Of a stretch of 64,000 nucleotides of DNA, positions 21,787 through 34,165 are shown piece by piece. Below the pieces are notes generated by a model. The model worked only from the letters and a program-made list of their open reading frames with translations. It did not search any database and had not been told where the DNA came from. This DNA comes from Natrinema pellirubrum DSM 15624 (GTDB lineage: Archaea; Halobacteriota; Halobacteria; Halobacteriales; Natrialbaceae). Made by a program: the position numbers and the translations under genes. Position 1 is the stretch's first letter, and every line of letters begins with the position of its first letter. Where the stretch lies: the NCBI RefSeq assembly GCF_000230735.2, contig NC_019962.1, forward strand, positions 124,001 through 188,000, given 5' to 3'.

Positions 21787-23829
21787 ATGGACCTCGAGTC
21801 GATTCCGGGCGTCGGCGAGAAGACGGCCCGAGCGCTGGCCGAACTCGACGATCCCGAGCGCGCGCTGCGGGCCGGCGACGTGGCCGCGATCGCGGCCGCG
21901 CCGGGGATTTCACAGGGGCGGGCCGCCCGCATCGCGCGGGGGGCGATCCGTCGCGATCACGACGACCCTGGCGGGTTCCTCGCGACCGACCGCGCCCGGG
22001 AGATCTACCGCGAGGTCCTCGCGTTGCTCGAGGAGCGTACCGTGACCGACTACGCCGCCCAGCGCCTCGAGACGATCTACCCGAGTCCGACGCGCTCGCG
22101 CATCGAGGAGGTGCGGGCGTTCGCGGCCGAGGCCCTCGAGCGCGAGCCCGATCCAGCCGTCCTCGAGGCCCTCGAGGGGCTCGAGCCGCTCCGGGAGCCG
22201 GGCGACGTGCGGGTCCGCGAGCGGTGTCTGGCGACGACCGACGCCGAGCGCTACTCCGAAGCCCGCGAGGCGATCCCGGAACTCTCCGTCGAGGTCGTCG
22301 AGGACGCACAGGGGCTAGCCGAACTCGCGCGGGGGTACTCGACGGTGATCGCCCTCGACGAGTCCTTCGCCGGCGTCACCGTCGAGGGCGACGTGCAGGT
22401 CCGACCCGACGCCCTCGAGAACCCGGCCGAAGTCGTTCCCGAGCGTCCCCTCGCGTTCTTCGCGCGGAACCGCGATCGGTTGGGAGCCGCCGTCGCGGTC
22501 CACCGGGCCGCCGACATGGACGCGGCCTGTGATCTTTCGGCCTTGGAGAACGGCCTCTCGCGGCTGGCCGAGGACGGCACGGTCGCGGGCGACGACGAAC
22601 TCGACCGCCTGACGACGGCGGTCGACGATCTGGACGCGGCGGCGAGCGCGGCCGAGAGCGTCGCCAACGACCGCCTCCGGGAGGCGATCCGTGAGCAGGA
22701 CGTCACGATCGAGGGCTCGGACCTGCTCTCGCTGGTCGAGCGCGGGGCCGGCGTCGACTCCTTGCTCTCGCGGGAGCTGGCCGACGAGTACGCCGCGGCC
22801 GTCGAGGCCGCCCGCGATCACCTCGTGGACGCGCTTGATCTCGATCAGGGCGAGAGCGAGATCGCCCGCCGCGCGTTCGGCGACGAGCCCACGTTTCCCG
22901 TCGAGCGCGACGAGGACGCGATCGGCCGGCTTCGCGAGGAGCTGACTGCGGCCAAGGAACGCCGTGCCGGCCGCCTGAAACGCGAGCTCGCTGCCGACCT
23001 CGCCGACCAGCGCGAGGGGGCCCGCCAACTGGTCCGGGACGCCCTCGAGCTGGACGTAGAGCTGGCGATCGCCCGCTTCGCACGGGATTTCGGGTGTACG
23101 ATGCCCGAGTTCGTCCCAGCGGCCGAGGCGAGGGGGACCGGCTTCGCGATCGAGGGCGGCCGGTCGCCGCTGCTCGACGAACCCCTCGAGGCGATCGATC
23201 CCGTCGACTACGCGGTCTCGGGTGTCGCCTTGCTGTCGGGTGTCAACAGCGGGGGGAAGACGTCGACGCTGGATCTGGTGGCAAGCGTCGTCGTGCTGGC
23301 CCACATGGGGCTGCCGGTGCCCGCCGAGAGCGTGCGCCTGCGGCGGTTCGACGACTTACACTACCACGCCAAGACACAGGGGACGCTGGACGCAGGGGCC
23401 TTCGAGGCGACGGTCCGGGAGTTCGCCGACCTCGCACAGGGCGGCGAGGGGTCGCTGGTGCTGGTCGACGAACTCGAGAGCATCACCGAGCCCGGCGCCT
23501 CGGCGAAGATCATCGCGGGCATCCTCGAGGCACTGTCGGAAAACGGCGCGACCGCGGTGTTCGTCTCCCATCTGGCGGGCGAGATCCGCGAGATGGCCGG
23601 CTTCGACGTGACCGTCGACGGCATCGAGGCGGTCGGTCTCGTCGACGGCGAACTCGAGGTCAACCGCTCGCCGGTCAAAGACCACCTGGCGCGGTCGACG
23701 CCGGAGTTGATCGTCGAGAAGTTGGCCGACGAGGCCCGGGACGAGGCGGTCGCAGCGAACGGCGGCGCTCCGAACGACGGCGACCCCGAGCCGGTCTTCT
23801 ACGATCGCTTGCTCGAGAAGTTCGACTAG
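21787..23829 (+). CDS. MutS-like ATPase with N-terminal helix-hairpin-helix
   Basis: 680 aa. Residues 1-45 are a helix-hairpin-helix (ESIPGVGEKTARALAEL; AAPGISQGRAARIA). A long helical core follows (about 100-480). The C-terminal MutS ATPase has Walker A GVNSGGKTS (G-P-N-x-x-G-K-S variant), Walker B LVLVDELESITEPG and the dimer-contact VSHLAGEI. There is no mismatch-recognition domain and no Smr nuclease, so it is neither MutS1 nor full MutS2. Predicted role: ATP-driven clamp on branched or collided structures. I place the start at the ATG at 21787, where HhH homology begins. Confidence 0.82.
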   Translation: MDLESIPGVGEKTARALAELDDPERALRAGDVAAIAAAPGISQGRAARIARGAIRRDHDDPGGFLATDRAREIYREVLALLEERTVTDYAAQRLETIYPSPTRSRIEEVRAFAAEALEREPDPAVLEALEGLEPLREPGDVRVRERCLATTDAERYSEAREAIPELSVEVVEDAQGLAELARGYSTVIALDESFAGVTVEGDVQVRPDALENPAEVVPERPLAFFARNRDRLGAAVAVHRAADMDAACDLSALENGLSRLAEDGTVAGDDELDRLTTAVDDLDAAASAAESVANDRLREAIREQDVTIEGSDLLSLVERGAGVDSLLSRELADEYAAAVEAARDHLVDALDLDQGESEIARRAFGDEPTFPVERDEDAIGRLREELTAAKERRAGRLKRELAADLADQREGARQLVRDALELDVELAIARFARDFGCTMPEFVPAAEARGTGFAIEGGRSPLLDEPLEAIDPVDYAVSGVALLSGVNSGGKTSTLDLVASVVVLAHMGLPVPAESVRLRRFDDLHYHAKTQGTLDAGAFEATVREFADLAQGGEGSLVLVDELESITEPGASAKIIAGILEALSENGATAVFVSHLAGEIREMAGFDVTVDGIEAVGLVDGELEVNRSPVKDHLARSTPELIVEKLADEARDEAVAANGGAPNDGDPEPVFYDRLLEKFD

Positions 23830-30174: not shown

Positions 30175-31401
30175 TCACAGCACGCCGAACCCGAACTCCG
30201 CCATCCCGAAGACCGGCCCCCACAGCAGGTGGAGCGCGACGCCGACGACGACCGCCGGCAGGAAGTTGTAGATCGTGGCGACGATGGCTGCTTTGGCGTC
30301 GACGGCCAGCAGCGGGAACAGGGCGTCGCCGTCCTGGGCGATCGCGTTCGCGGTCAGCGCCGAGAAGGGGAGTCCGCCCTCGGCGTAGACGCTGGCCAGC
30401 AGGATCTGCGGGCCACAGCCGGGGATCAGCCCGACTGCCGCGCCGCCGATCGGCGCGAGGATACCGGCCGTCGCCGCGAGCGTCGCGACGTTGACCCCGC
30501 TGAAGAGGACGAAGTACTCGTAGACGAGGAAGGCCACCAGCACCCAGACGGTGACGAAACTCGTCTCCATCGCCGCGTGGGTAAGCGTATCATAGACCGA
30601 CAGGAAGGAGTCTCGAGCCCGCGCGATCTCCCCCTCGCCGACGTAGTGGCGGCCGATCAGGTAGAGGTACAGCGACAGGACCGCACCGGCGATCCCGGTG
30701 ACGGTAAAGAGTCCGTCGAAGCCGAGCCCAGCGACGAGCGCGACCTCGGGGCCGCCCCGAAGCAGGTAGAGGCTGCCCAGCACGAGTCCCACGACGGCTG
30801 CGATCCACCACAGGACGTGTGCGAGATGGGACAGCGGCGTGAGGACTCGAGAGTGGCGATCGGGACCGCTCTCGTGGGCGTGGGTCGGGGCGGGACCGCC
30901 GTAGTCGTGGGCCGGGTTAGGACCGACGCCGCCGTTGACGACGGTGCCGCCGTCCGGCGTCGCGGCGGGTGAGAGCCGGGCGACCGCGGCGTCGACCCGC
31001 GAGACGCCCAGCCCGACGGAGTCGACGAGGTAGCCGGTCGCGACCGACGCGGCGAACGCGATGGCGTAGGTGTACAGCGCGGCTTCGGGTGCGAGCGCGA
31101 GGATGACAAAGGCCGAGTCGCCCGCCGTCGCGCCCAGCGTCGCCACGACGGTCCCGAAGCTGACGGTGCCACGAACGTACAGCGGCATCACGACGATCGC
31201 GCCGCCACAGCCAGGCGTCAGTCCCAGCAGCCCGCCGAAGGCGACCTGTAGCCGCTCGTTACCTTCGATAGCACCGATCACGGCCCCGTCGGTCCAGTAC
31301 TGGACCAATCCGAACGCGAGTACCGTGACCGCGACGAACGCACTCACCTGTACGTAGCCGTCCCGCAACGACTCGAGGAGAACCGTCAGGACATCGTTCA
31401 C
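30175..31401 (-). CDS. Putative manganese/heavy-metal exporter (PF11449-type)
   Basis: 408 aa with about ten helices in two homologous halves. Each half carries a P-G-C-G motif and a similar continuation: LTPGCGGAIVVMPLYVRGTVSF near 57-78 and LIPGCGPQILLASVYAEGGLPF near 320-341. A soluble His/Asp-containing loop (about 150-195, THAHESGPDRH) joins them. Family knowledge: putative ten-helix metal exporters with suggested manganese specificity. The start is GTG, with GGTGAGG 4 nt upstream. The palindrome at 31451-31466 suggests metal-dependent repression. Confidence 0.78.
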   Translation of the reverse strand: MNDVLTVLLESLRDGYVQVSAFVAVTVLAFGLVQYWTDGAVIGAIEGNERLQVAFGGLLGLTPGCGGAIVVMPLYVRGTVSFGTVVATLGATAGDSAFVILALAPEAALYTYAIAFAASVATGYLVDSVGLGVSRVDAAVARLSPAATPDGGTVVNGGVGPNPAHDYGGPAPTHAHESGPDRHSRVLTPLSHLAHVLWWIAAVVGLVLGSLYLLRGGPEVALVAGLGFDGLFTVTGIAGAVLSLYLYLIGRHYVGEGEIARARDSFLSVYDTLTHAAMETSFVTVWVLVAFLVYEYFVLFSGVNVATLAATAGILAPIGGAAVGLIPGCGPQILLASVYAEGGLPFSALTANAIAQDGDALFPLLAVDAKAAIVATIYNFLPAVVVGVALHLLWGPVFGMAEFGFGVL

Positions 31402-31412: not shown

Positions 31413-31450
31413 CCTGCTGTGGGGCCGATCGACCGAAAGATTAGACATCT

Positions 31451-31466
31451 CTAAACCTAGGTTTAG
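31451..31466. promoter_or_regulatory. Perfect 16-bp palindrome, candidate DtxR/MntR-type operator
   Basis: CTAAACCTAGGTTTAG is fully self-complementary. It lies 50 nt upstream of the exporter start and about 25 nt downstream of a TATA-like CTATTTACC (minus strand, 31476-31484), so it would cover the transcription start. Haloarchaeal DtxR-family metal regulators (SirR, Idr) are known to use AT-rich palindromes of this general kind; the match to a particular regulator is inferred. Confidence 0.6.
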
Positions 31467-31615
31467 CACCATCAGGTAAATAGCTGCTGGTGGCGACAGT
31501 CGGGCTGTGACGGCGGCTCGAGGCAGCCGCTGCGCGGGAGGATGAACGGTGGCGGTCGAAAACGGAGCGGGCGAGAAACGGAGTCGAGACGGCCCCGATC
31601 CCGACGGCGTCGTCG

Positions 31616-32947
31616 CTATTCGCGGTCGTCCCGATGGTGGTCGTCCCGGAGGTGTTCGATCGCGTGGAGTTCGACGACGGGGACGACCTTAGAGACGGTC
31701 AGGAAGATAAGCGCAACCATGCCGATCGTCCCGAGGATCGACAGGACCTCGATCAGTCCCGGGACGTAATTGCCCGGGACGGCCCCGTAGATGTCGAACG
31801 TGGGGTGTAAGAAGCCCTCGACGACGAACAGCACTTTCTCCATGATCGTCGCAGTGAGGACCGCGAAGCCGGAGAGGATAGCTCGTCGCTTGGTAAACAG
31901 CGTCGGGCGAATCGCCTGGGCGAAGATATACGACAGCGTCACGAAGACCAGCGACATCGACGTGAGGTAGATGGAGTTCGTGGCTCTGGCGAACGCTGCG
32001 ATCGTCAGGTCGAGGGGGGCCTGGAACAGGCCGGTAATGTTCTGCTGGAGTTGCAGCCACAGGAAGAGCAGACAGAAGAAGCCGAGCCAGAGGAGCAGTC
32101 CACGGAAGATGTCGTCGGTAATGATGTGATCCCAGTCGTACGCGCGTCGGAACGAATAGGCGAGGATAATGACGCCGCTGATGGCCGACGTAAGTGCGAT
32201 GGTAAGGAACTGCGGCCCCTGGACGCCGCCGAACCAGGTCGGATAGTTCGGCAACACGGCGAACAGCCACGGGATCACGCCGCCATGGAGGAGCAGTGGG
32301 GCCATGATGATGATCGCGAGCGCGAGCCACCAGACCATCCGCTCGACGATCGCGTCCTCTTTTTCGGTGTAGCCGATCGTCATGAACCGGTAGATCGGAT
32401 CCAGGCGATCCGGAAGGTCATCACGGAGCCGGCTGACGTCGTACCGCAGCGTCAGCGAGAGATAGGTCGCCGTCAACACGAAATAGGCCGTGATGACGGT
32501 CACGTCCCACACCAGCGGCGAGCCGTGGATCGTGATGTGGTAGTGGCCGATGACGCTCGTAACCATTCGGTCCGGCCGACCGAGGTGGACGATGATGTAA
32601 AAGCCGGCCGCGGAGAGGCCGGCGATGGTCAGCAGTTCGGCGAGGCGGGCGACCGGCATGTACCGATCCATCCCCAACAGGCGGACGGCAGCCGAGAGGA
32701 TGATCCCGCCGTGGGCGATGCCGACCCACCAGATGAACGCGCCGATGTAGATCCCCCACGTGGCGCCGCCGCCGCTTCCCCAGTCACCGAGGGCAGTGAC
32801 GACCAACCCTTCCTGGAGCTGGTAGCCCCATCCGACGAGAAAGGCGAGAAACGCCAGCCCGGCGACGGCGACCATAATGAAGTACGTTGTCGATACCGAC
32901 CCGATCGGCCGCAGAATGTCGGCCTCGCTCGGCGTTTTCGTTCCCAT
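31616..32947 (-). CDS. NrfD/PsrC-family quinone-reactive membrane subunit
   Basis: About 443 aa with nine to ten helices and the NrfD/PsrC layout: an early W-G-I-Y-I-G-A-F-I-W-W-V-G-I-A-H-G-G helix, HLGRPDRM after helix 3, then SPLVWDV. Family knowledge: membrane anchor of molybdopterin oxidoreductases and of alternative complex III that exchanges electrons with the quinone pool. Here no iron-sulfur or molybdopterin partner gene is adjacent (neighbours: metal exporter and GNAT), so it is an orphan. Two ATGs (32956 and 32947) are possible; MGTKTPSE is preferred. Confidence 0.82.
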   Translation of the reverse strand: MGTKTPSEADILRPIGSVSTTYFIMVAVAGLAFLAFLVGWGYQLQEGLVVTALGDWGSGGGATWGIYIGAFIWWVGIAHGGIILSAAVRLLGMDRYMPVARLAELLTIAGLSAAGFYIIVHLGRPDRMVTSVIGHYHITIHGSPLVWDVTVITAYFVLTATYLSLTLRYDVSRLRDDLPDRLDPIYRFMTIGYTEKEDAIVERMVWWLALAIIIMAPLLLHGGVIPWLFAVLPNYPTWFGGVQGPQFLTIALTSAISGVIILAYSFRRAYDWDHIITDDIFRGLLLWLGFFCLLFLWLQLQQNITGLFQAPLDLTIAAFARATNSIYLTSMSLVFVTLSYIFAQAIRPTLFTKRRAILSGFAVLTATIMEKVLFVVEGFLHPTFDIYGAVPGNYVPGLIEVLSILGTIGMVALIFLTVSKVVPVVELHAIEHLRDDHHRDDRE

Positions 32948-33045
32948 GTGCGACACTATCTCTCACTAGCGGCCCACTTGCATCCGTGCTATGAATTTGC
33001 AAGGACACTGTCGATCATCGCGGTCTCACCGGCCAAGCGGTGTGA

Positions 33046-33528
33046 TCACAGCTCGAGCGTGTAGACGACTTCGCGTCGCTGCTTGCCGCCGATCTCGACG
33101 TCGTCTTCGCCGGTGGGCTCGAACCCGTGATCCTCGTAGAACTCGCGGCCGCCCTCGTTCGAGGCGAGGTCGATCGCCCGCATCCGCTCCATGTTGAAGT
33201 CCTGGAGGTCCTCGCGCAGCCGCTCGTAGAGCGCGGTGCCGATCCCCTCGCTCTGATGGTCGGGGTGGACGGACATGCGGAGGACATCGCCTTCGTCCTC
33301 GCTGACGACGCCGTGGGTGAAGCCGACGATGTCTCTGTCTTTCTCGGCGACGAGGAACGCGGTGCCGGGTTTCGACAGCGCCATCTCGAGGGCCTCGTCG
33401 CCGTACCACTCGTCGATGGTCTCGTCGATGGTGTCGGCGTCGAGTTCGTCGTAGGTGTCGTGCCAGGTCGCCCGGGCGACGCGTCTGATCGCCGATCGGT
33501 CCTCGCGGGTGGCTGGTCGGAGTTCCAT
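33046..33528 (-). CDS. GNAT family N-acetyltransferase (copy 1)
   Basis: 160 aa, complete GNAT fold. The acetyl-CoA motif is HPDHQSEGIGTALYERL (about 95-111), preceded by the strand EDEGDVLRMSV and followed by NEGGREFYEDHGF. Substrate (protein, amine or antibiotic) unknown. It is about half identical by eye to the neighbour at 33689 and shares the start motif RAIRRVARATWHDTYDEL-like region (WHDTYDELDADTIDET), so this is a tandem duplication. Confidence 0.86.
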   Translation of the reverse strand: MELRPATREDRSAIRRVARATWHDTYDELDADTIDETIDEWYGDEALEMALSKPGTAFLVAEKDRDIVGFTHGVVSEDEGDVLRMSVHPDHQSEGIGTALYERLREDLQDFNMERMRAIDLASNEGGREFYEDHGFEPTGEDDVEIGGKQRREVVYTLEL

Positions 33529-33610
33529 ACCGTGACTACGATAGCGAGTAACAAAGCCCTTCCACCCGCTCAGTTAGGTCCCCTCGTCGATCGGCTCGGC
33601 GGGTGGCTAT

Positions 33611-33694
33611 ATAGTAGCCGCTGAAAGTCATTGCACACCTGATCGAACGACGGCGTTGCGATCAGTGTGTGAACCGTTTCAGCGGCGACTATAG
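33611..33694. repeat. Imperfect palindromic repeat, copy A
   Basis: About 84 bp. Left end ATAGTAGCCGCTGAAA; right end (reverse complement) ATAGTCGCCGCTGAAA, one mismatch. Inside these, the left arm reads GTCATTGCACACCTGATCG and the right arm, reversed, CGGTTCACACACTGATCG. Related copies lie at 41015 (opposite orientation) and 56951 (degenerate). The right end contains the TAG stop codon of the second GNAT gene (33689-33691). The arms can fold as a long hairpin; it resembles a non-autonomous MITE-like element. Confidence 0.75.
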
Positions 33695-34165
33695 TTCGAG
33701 CGTGTAGACCGCTTCGGGGTAGTACTCGCCGTCGATCTCGACCTCGCCCTCGTCGGTCTGCTCGAAGCCCAGCCCCTCGTAGAACCGGCGGCTGGCGTCG
33801 TTGAACGCGAAGTCGAACGAGCGGACTTCCTCGGCGTCGGTCTCCTCGAGGGTCGCCATCAGCCGCTCGTGAAGCGCCGAGCCGACCCCCTCGCCCTGGT
33901 GGTCGGGGTGGACGTACATCCGGAGGATGTCGGCGGTCTCGCCCTGTGCGACTGCATGGGTGAAGCCGACGAGTTCGTCGTCACGTTCTGCGACGAGAAC
34001 GACCGTTCCGGGTGCCTCGAGCGGCATCGAGTCGTCGGTGTACCATGCGTCGACGGTCTCGTCGATGGTGTCGGCGTCGAGTTCGTCGTAGGTGTCGTGC
34101 CACGTCGCCCGAGCGACGGCCGTGATCGCGTCGAAATCGTCTTCCGTCGCGGATCGAACGTTCAT
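33689..34165 (-). CDS. GNAT family N-acetyltransferase (copy 2)
   Basis: 158 aa, close paralogue of the gene at 33046, sharing ARATWHDTYDELDADTIDET near the N-terminus and HPDHQGEGVGSALHERL as the CoA-binding motif. Catalysis would be acetyl transfer from acetyl-CoA; the substrate is unknown. Its last codons and stop fall at the edge of palindromic repeat copy A, which is inserted between the two paralogues. Confidence 0.86.
   Translation of the reverse strand: MNVRSATEDDFDAITAVARATWHDTYDELDADTIDETVDAWYTDDSMPLEAPGTVVLVAERDDELVGFTHAVAQGETADILRMYVHPDHQGEGVGSALHERLMATLEETDAEEVRSFDFAFNDASRRFYEGLGFEQTDEGEVEIDGEYYPEAVYTLEL

Follow-up and report, generated by a model that had tools for sequence, protein, structure and literature searches.

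A perfect 16-bp palindrome, CTAAACCTAGGTTTAG, lies before a gene for a PF11449-family transporter in the 64,000-nucleotide stretch of Natrinema pellirubrum DSM 15624 analysed here (the window), raising the question of whether it marks a metal-responsive operator and whether the gene behind it serves export or uptake. A sequence-only reading had taken the 16-mer for the binding site of a DtxR/MntR-type regulator that controls export by metal level. The exact palindrome was confirmed at 31451-31466, as were the TATA-like element further upstream on the minus strand (TATTTA, 31477-31482) and the paired PGCG motifs of the transporter (P63 G64 C65 G66 and P327 G328 C329 G330), which are invariant in 33 aligned proteins. 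The features of the locus are listed in Table 1.

Table 1. Features of the transporter locus and its promoter region, in window positions.
Feature	Position	Strand	Support
PF11449 (ArsP_2) transporter gene, 408 aa	30175..31401	-	PF11449 385.8 bits, cut-off 32.5
Primary operator TTAGANNNNTCTAA (reads TTAGAGATGTCTAA), putative single DtxR-type dimer site	31441..31454	-	0 mismatches in 36/44 promoters
Palindrome CTAAACCTAGGTTTAG, skeleton CTAA-N8-TTAG	31451..31466	.	Skeleton 32/43, perfect 2/43
Auxiliary half-site CTAAA, part of a putative degenerate second site whose offset from the primary operator is 22 bp upstream	31462..31466	-	AA 42/42
TATA box TATTTA (predicted), beginning 28 bp upstream of the primary operator	31477..31482	-	TATWTA conserved

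The Palindrome and the Primary Operator

A perfect 16-bp palindrome as such is not beyond chance expectation in the window, which holds three where 40 dinucleotide-shuffled versions average 3.75 (range 1-9); the other two lie at 31291-31306, within the PF11449 gene, and at 21882-21897. CTAAACCTAGGTTTAG is single in the window even when up to 3 mismatches are allowed, and the 4.35-Mb genome contains one exact copy and two other places at 3 mismatches. The genome search proposed with the sequence-only reading found no second exact copy, so the palindrome is no regulon marker. Its use as such was dropped (CTAAANNNNNNTTTAG was found once and the reversed control also once), and the form CTAAA-N6-TTTAG had no other copy in the genome. 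Among 43 orthologous promoters, the palindrome is perfect in two (N. thermotolerans and N. mahii) and its central hexamer, CCTAGG, is not conserved; the skeleton CTAA-N8-TTAG is retained in 32. What speaks for a role of the palindrome is the conservation of this skeleton, not its being a perfect 16-mer.

Nor does the palindrome appear to be the DtxR-type dimer site itself, for it has no further exact copy and the dimer-type site, TTAGANNNNTCTAA, overlaps it with an offset of 11 bp. TTAGANNNNTCTAA presents inverted TTAG/CTAA half-sites in single-dimer spacing. Its conservation was scored in 43 readable orthologous promoters plus the window, 44 in total (one of the 44 orthologous loci starts inside the gene). 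Within 203 bp, the best match is exact in 36 of these, has 1 mismatch in seven and 2 in one, giving at most 1 mismatch in 43/44 promoters when the window is counted and in 42/43 when it is left out, and the reversed TTAGANNNNTCTAA never did better than 2 mismatches (1/44). Random 203-bp pieces from the same sources matched with 0 mismatches in 15 of 880 cases, about as many as overlap would give, the site being present in each of the loci.

A common layout is shared by the 42 promoters that extend far enough on either side: relative to the element, TATWTA occupies -28 to -23, CTAAA -12 to -8 (AA in 42/42, C in 38/42 and T in 35/42) and TTAGA...GTCTAA 0 to 13. Transcription would be expected to start near 31453, and the operator covers this predicted start, as for a metal-activated repressor, suggesting Mn-dependent repression. 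A strong site directly behind a TATA-like stretch is also present at the regulator, ZIP and GDT1 genes described below; at the promoters of ZnuA-type genes, the TATA box is preceded by the strong site, an arrangement that could also mean activation. Part of the conservation of CTAAA, located near -10, could reflect the core promoter. A search of five loci (four PF11449 plasmid-record regions and the promoter region of the window) against Rfam gave no match and no Mn riboswitch. Upstream of the operator, on the same strand, lies a gene for an NrfD/PsrC-type membrane protein (window 31616-32956), followed at 33046-34165 by two adjacent GNAT acetyltransferase genes that are alike in sequence.

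The Candidate Regulator and Its Sites

Exact copies of TTAGANNNNTCTAA occur twice in the genome (reversed control 0): one is that of the transporter promoter, and the other lies 12 bp ahead of the first ATG of a gene for a DtxR-family regulator (C1:1481899; L079:1527-2213). Before this regulator gene in 30 genomes, the present one included, the best match to the element has 0 mismatches in 23, 1 in three and more in four. The 228-aa regulator scores above the cut-offs of PF01325, PF02742 and PF04023, covering the DNA-binding, metal-binding/dimerisation and FeoA domains, and its nearest solved relatives by sequence include SloR and IdeR. Residues D9, D102, E105 and H106 align with the metal-site columns of IdeR, with D9 and D102 replacing M10 and C102; assuming the roles usually given to these columns, aspartate at both positions is presumably the pattern of an Mn sensor. 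Against the NCBIfam MntR equivalog NF047407 the protein scored 208.6 bits, below the cut-off of 350.

At least one copy of the pattern TTTAGANNNNTCTAA is present in 86 of 119 genomes, counting the present one, and no genome has more than 5 strand matches; the reversed control is found in 24/119. Away from the transporter and regulator genes, 32 sites in relatives were retrieved: 15 precede ZnuA-type genes, three GDT1 genes, two each multicopper oxidase and DoxX genes, and 10 have no assigned target. Immediately behind the regulator gene or a paralogue lie eight sites, six of them before a ZIP-like gene and two before a multicopper oxidase gene. These assignments are based on Pfam for nine representatives and otherwise on like protein starts and homology searches for ZnuA-type and ZIP-like proteins; the representative ZIP-like protein has a ZIP domain score of 20.8 bits, below the cut-off of 35.1. 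Three relatives have exact sites ahead of GDT1-type reading frames, at distances of 58, 160 and 181 bp (Pfam was run on one), and the genome studied here has a site with 2 mismatches 36 bp upstream of the first possible start codon of a GDT1-family gene.

Looser patterns did not discriminate. TTAG-N6-CTAA alone gave 27 sites against 28 in the reversed control, and allowing up to 2 mismatches to TTTAGANNNNTCTAAA gave 35 against 31, for which reason 2-mismatch matches were left unused save for the GDT1 site, kept because its position is right and it is seen in relatives. A 1-mismatch site at C1:2236400, which by eye precedes an EamA-like or Lrp-like frame, was judged to be chance. Beside the regulator gene of this genome (L079:512-1435, on C1), and transcribed away from it, lies a gene of the arginase family (PF00491), whose members are Mn enzymes; the operator is in the spacer common to the two genes. 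An arginase-like frame was seen by eye in the same arrangement at another locus (L187).

Control of the transporter gene by a regulator of the DtxR/MntR type is well supported by these comparisons, because the operator is placed at the regulator gene itself and, among relatives, at ZnuA-type, ZIP-like and GDT1 genes. The kind of controller put forward by the sequence-only reading thus holds up, with TTAGANNNNTCTAA rather than the palindrome as its probable site.

Spacing of the Half-Sites

The only additional CTAA or TTAG found in at least 12% of the transporter promoters is the CTAA at -12 (32/43). At the ZnuA sites, an extra TTAG lies at +22 in 8/15, with TTAG at +44 and CTAA at +54 in two each. 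The -12 half-site of the transporter promoters and the +22 half-site of the ZnuA promoters form the same CTAA-N8-TTAG junction, in mirrored spacing. When a whole second site was scored, the best offset was -22 in the transporter promoters (5.56/10 positions, 4.3 sd over background), a score carried largely by CTAA, with the other half adjoining the TATA box, and +22 in the ZnuA promoters (5.47, 3.9 sd; next +26, 5.07). From these mirrored offsets, the palindrome is read as the junction between the upstream half of the primary operator, a strong site, and the auxiliary half-site of a degenerate site 22 bp, or two helical turns, away. Only the PF11449 and ZnuA promoters have 22 bp as their best secondary offset; the ZIP promoters have TTAG 42-43 bp upstream in 5/6 and a best secondary offset of -16 instead, and in the regulator's own promoter the phasing was not seen, the top offset of +57 falling in the coding region.

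Proposed Mechanism and Alternatives

A haloarchaeal MntR/SirR-like regulator of the DtxR family is likely to use the site as its operator, and its Mn-loaded dimers on both sites would repress the transporter gene. With plentiful Mn2+, metal-loaded dimers would occupy, on one face of the DNA, the 14-bp primary site at the expected start of the gene and the second, degenerate site with CTAAA, which adjoins the TATA box two turns further upstream, and would block RNA polymerase; with falling Mn2+, the gene would be derepressed. The same regulator would bind its own promoter and probably also that of the GDT1 gene. We infer the identity of the regulator at the operator, manganese as the metal and repression as the effect from the sites and the genes that they precede. 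Such repression would be unexpected if the gene is an exporter, as its name says, and also in the case of GDT1, a family usually viewed as serving Mn export.

It is unlikely that the palindrome is a product of chance, in which case CTAAA would simply be the -10 sequence of the promoter and TTTAG a half of the operator. Chance alone would give the window perfect 16-mers, and A/T is favoured near -10 in archaeal promoters; however, the C and T of CTAAA are conserved as well, and TTAG recurs in mirrored spacing in the ZnuA promoters (8/15). A chance origin of the perfect symmetry at the centre of the palindrome is compatible with the MntR/SirR-type operator. Far more improbable is that the palindrome is the site of an unrelated regulator, for example of ArsR or TetR type, which the DtxR-type element overlaps by accident: its perfection and the skeleton in 32/43 promoters would agree with such a site, but the central hexamer is not conserved, the genome has neither another exact copy nor another CTAAA-N6-TTTAG, and the CTAA-N8-TTAG spacing is found on the same element in 8 of the 15 ZnuA promoters.

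Uptake or Export

The direction of transport is the part of the earlier claim that fares less well. The family title of PF11449 is 'Putative, 10TM heavy-metal exporter', the transporter matches the NCBIfam 'arsenic efflux protein' with 266 bits, and in a plasmid collection 10 of the 12 records with a homologue carry the RefSeq name 'putative manganese transporter'. Named genomes supplied 44 loci with orthologues, almost all of them haloarchaeal and with Natrinema as the most frequent genus. A PF11449 match of any kind is present in 55 of the 119 genomes (own included), 51 of which were counted as having clear orthologues; the four left out hold a distant paralogue (G043) or show no more than fragments or remote matches (G089, G102 and G111). 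In one genome (G016:C3:2427851-2429073), the gene is split over two frames into pieces 92% and 95% identical, by a frameshift or a sequencing error. In Photobacterium sp. GJ3 (L301), a Fur-box-like stretch was seen by eye about 200 bp upstream of the start of the PF11449 match, which would also fit metal-repressed uptake.

The predicted structure of the transporter (mean pLDDT 76) suggests a fold that cannot settle direction, because both a pump and importers match it. The arsenite pump ArsB was the best match in VIA-align (Z 13.5, rmsd 4.6 over 271 residues), with a score on the borderline stated for helical bundles, and the matches after it were mostly importers (NaS1, Pho90, NaDC3 and CNT). 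A profile search of the transporter against solved structures gave nothing credible (best E 0.24), and Foldseek with the transporter model gave no match at E <= 0.001.

The distribution of PF11449 genes relative to operator-linked ZIP orthologues (E <= 5e-87) bears on direction. In the 73 genomes of the host family, both are present in 6, PF11449 only in 36, ZIP only in 24 and neither in 7 (p 5e-8, uncorrected for kinship), and when the genus of the window is left out the counts are 5, 8, 24 and 7 (p 0.019). Sampling a single genome from each genus of the host family gave a median p of 0.013 (5-95% range 0.002 to 0.14). A looser ZIP definition that admits a second, more distant group (E <= about 1e-47) weakens the argument for uptake, with 13 host-family genomes having both, 29 PF11449 only, 24 ZIP only and 7 neither (p 1e-4), and 6, 7, 24 and 7 without the genus of the window (p 0.07). 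Outside the host family, the avoidance is absent (both 1, PF11449 only 8, ZIP only 2, neither 35; 46 genomes), one genome per genus across all families gave a median p of 0.19, and PF11449 against the ZnuA clade inside the host family was not significant (p 0.26). At least one of PF11449, the operator-linked ZIP and the ZnuA clade is present in all 73 host-family genomes but two, which are 53% and 67% complete. Taken for what it is, the avoidance is a hint that PF11449 can replace an importer, and no proof.

Together with the operator at the expected start, the rarity of host-family genomes with both PF11449 and the operator-linked ZIP makes uptake a serious alternative to export. A DtxR/MntR-type regulator as the controller is the part of the original proposal that is retained, and export is the part that these two observations put in doubt. 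A possible, still tentative reading is that the PF11449 protein is the Mn uptake system of Natrinema and its relatives, repressed by the Mn-loaded DtxR-family regulator through helically phased operators and replacing the ZIP (or ABC) importer that related genera have in the same regulon. That the same regulator and operator instead control a true exporter of Mn or another metal, with the metal-free form repressing or the metal-loaded form activating, seems somewhat unlikely. Its family names, ArsB as the best structural match and the near-match site at the GDT1 gene of the same genome agree with export, as does the presence of distant ZnuA-type genes in 102 of the 119 genomes, own included, by which import need not depend on PF11449. 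However, the operator is placed as for a repressor and DtxR-family repressors are normally metal-activated, importers share the putative fold, and the small number of host-family genomes with both the gene and the operator-linked ZIP is unexpected for an exporter.

Relation to Known Regulators

Archaeal metal regulons of the DtxR family/MntR, with ZIP and TroA-type genes, were reportedly described by Leyn and Rodionov in 2015 (J Bacteriol 197:451), and the present set resembles them as a putative DtxR-family metal regulon with ZIP-like genes. According to PMC8464063, bacterial DtxR/IdeR operators contain four CCTAA repeats in a 19-bp palindrome that binds two dimers. The haloarchaeal sites share with these the inverted CTAA-type half-sites, TTAGR-N4-YCTAA, and a putative second dimer site, but the half-site here is TTAGA and theirs is TTAGG. 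The second site also lies 22 bp (two turns) away here, whereas theirs overlaps the first with an offset that we take to be 5 bp, as read off the 19-mer.

SirR of Halobacterium, also of the DtxR family, is reported to repress both itself and a Mn/Fe ABC importer when Mn is present (PMC3600143, PMC1779511), being a Mn(II)-dependent autorepressor in whose deletion zurM, zurA and ycdH are up (PMC3600143). The sites at the regulator's own gene and at ZnuA-type genes match this pattern; a PF11449 target is not named in the excerpts of PMC3600143 and PMC1779511. Four halobacterial GDT1 genes are reported to be under Mn-dependent control in PMC7380456, a review that cites the 2015 study and ascribes this control to ManSR, and the GDT1 genes examined here likewise carry the operator or a near match. 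Searches retrieved no literature on this PF11449 operator or on the 22-bp phased arrangement; key papers fell outside the search, and no priority is claimed. The sites would link PF11449, whose substrate and direction of transport are uncertain, with a manganese-type regulon; they would also give an archaeal DtxR-family regulator an arrangement of half-sites phased over two turns.

The operator code also appears to be sharp, with TTAGA-type sites alongside TTAGG-type sites in one genome. Among its 27 TTAG-N6-CTAA sites, 21 fit TTAGGNNNNCCTAA, a set that looks like the iron-type DtxR code, a label that we take from work on bacterial and haloarchaeal DtxR proteins. The geometry of their half-sites is alike, and one base per half-site differs, G/C standing where TTAGANNNNTCTAA has A/T. 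Sites of the TTAGGNNNNCCTAA type are partly paired or clustered, for example at C1:727101-737463 and 3574635-3577840.
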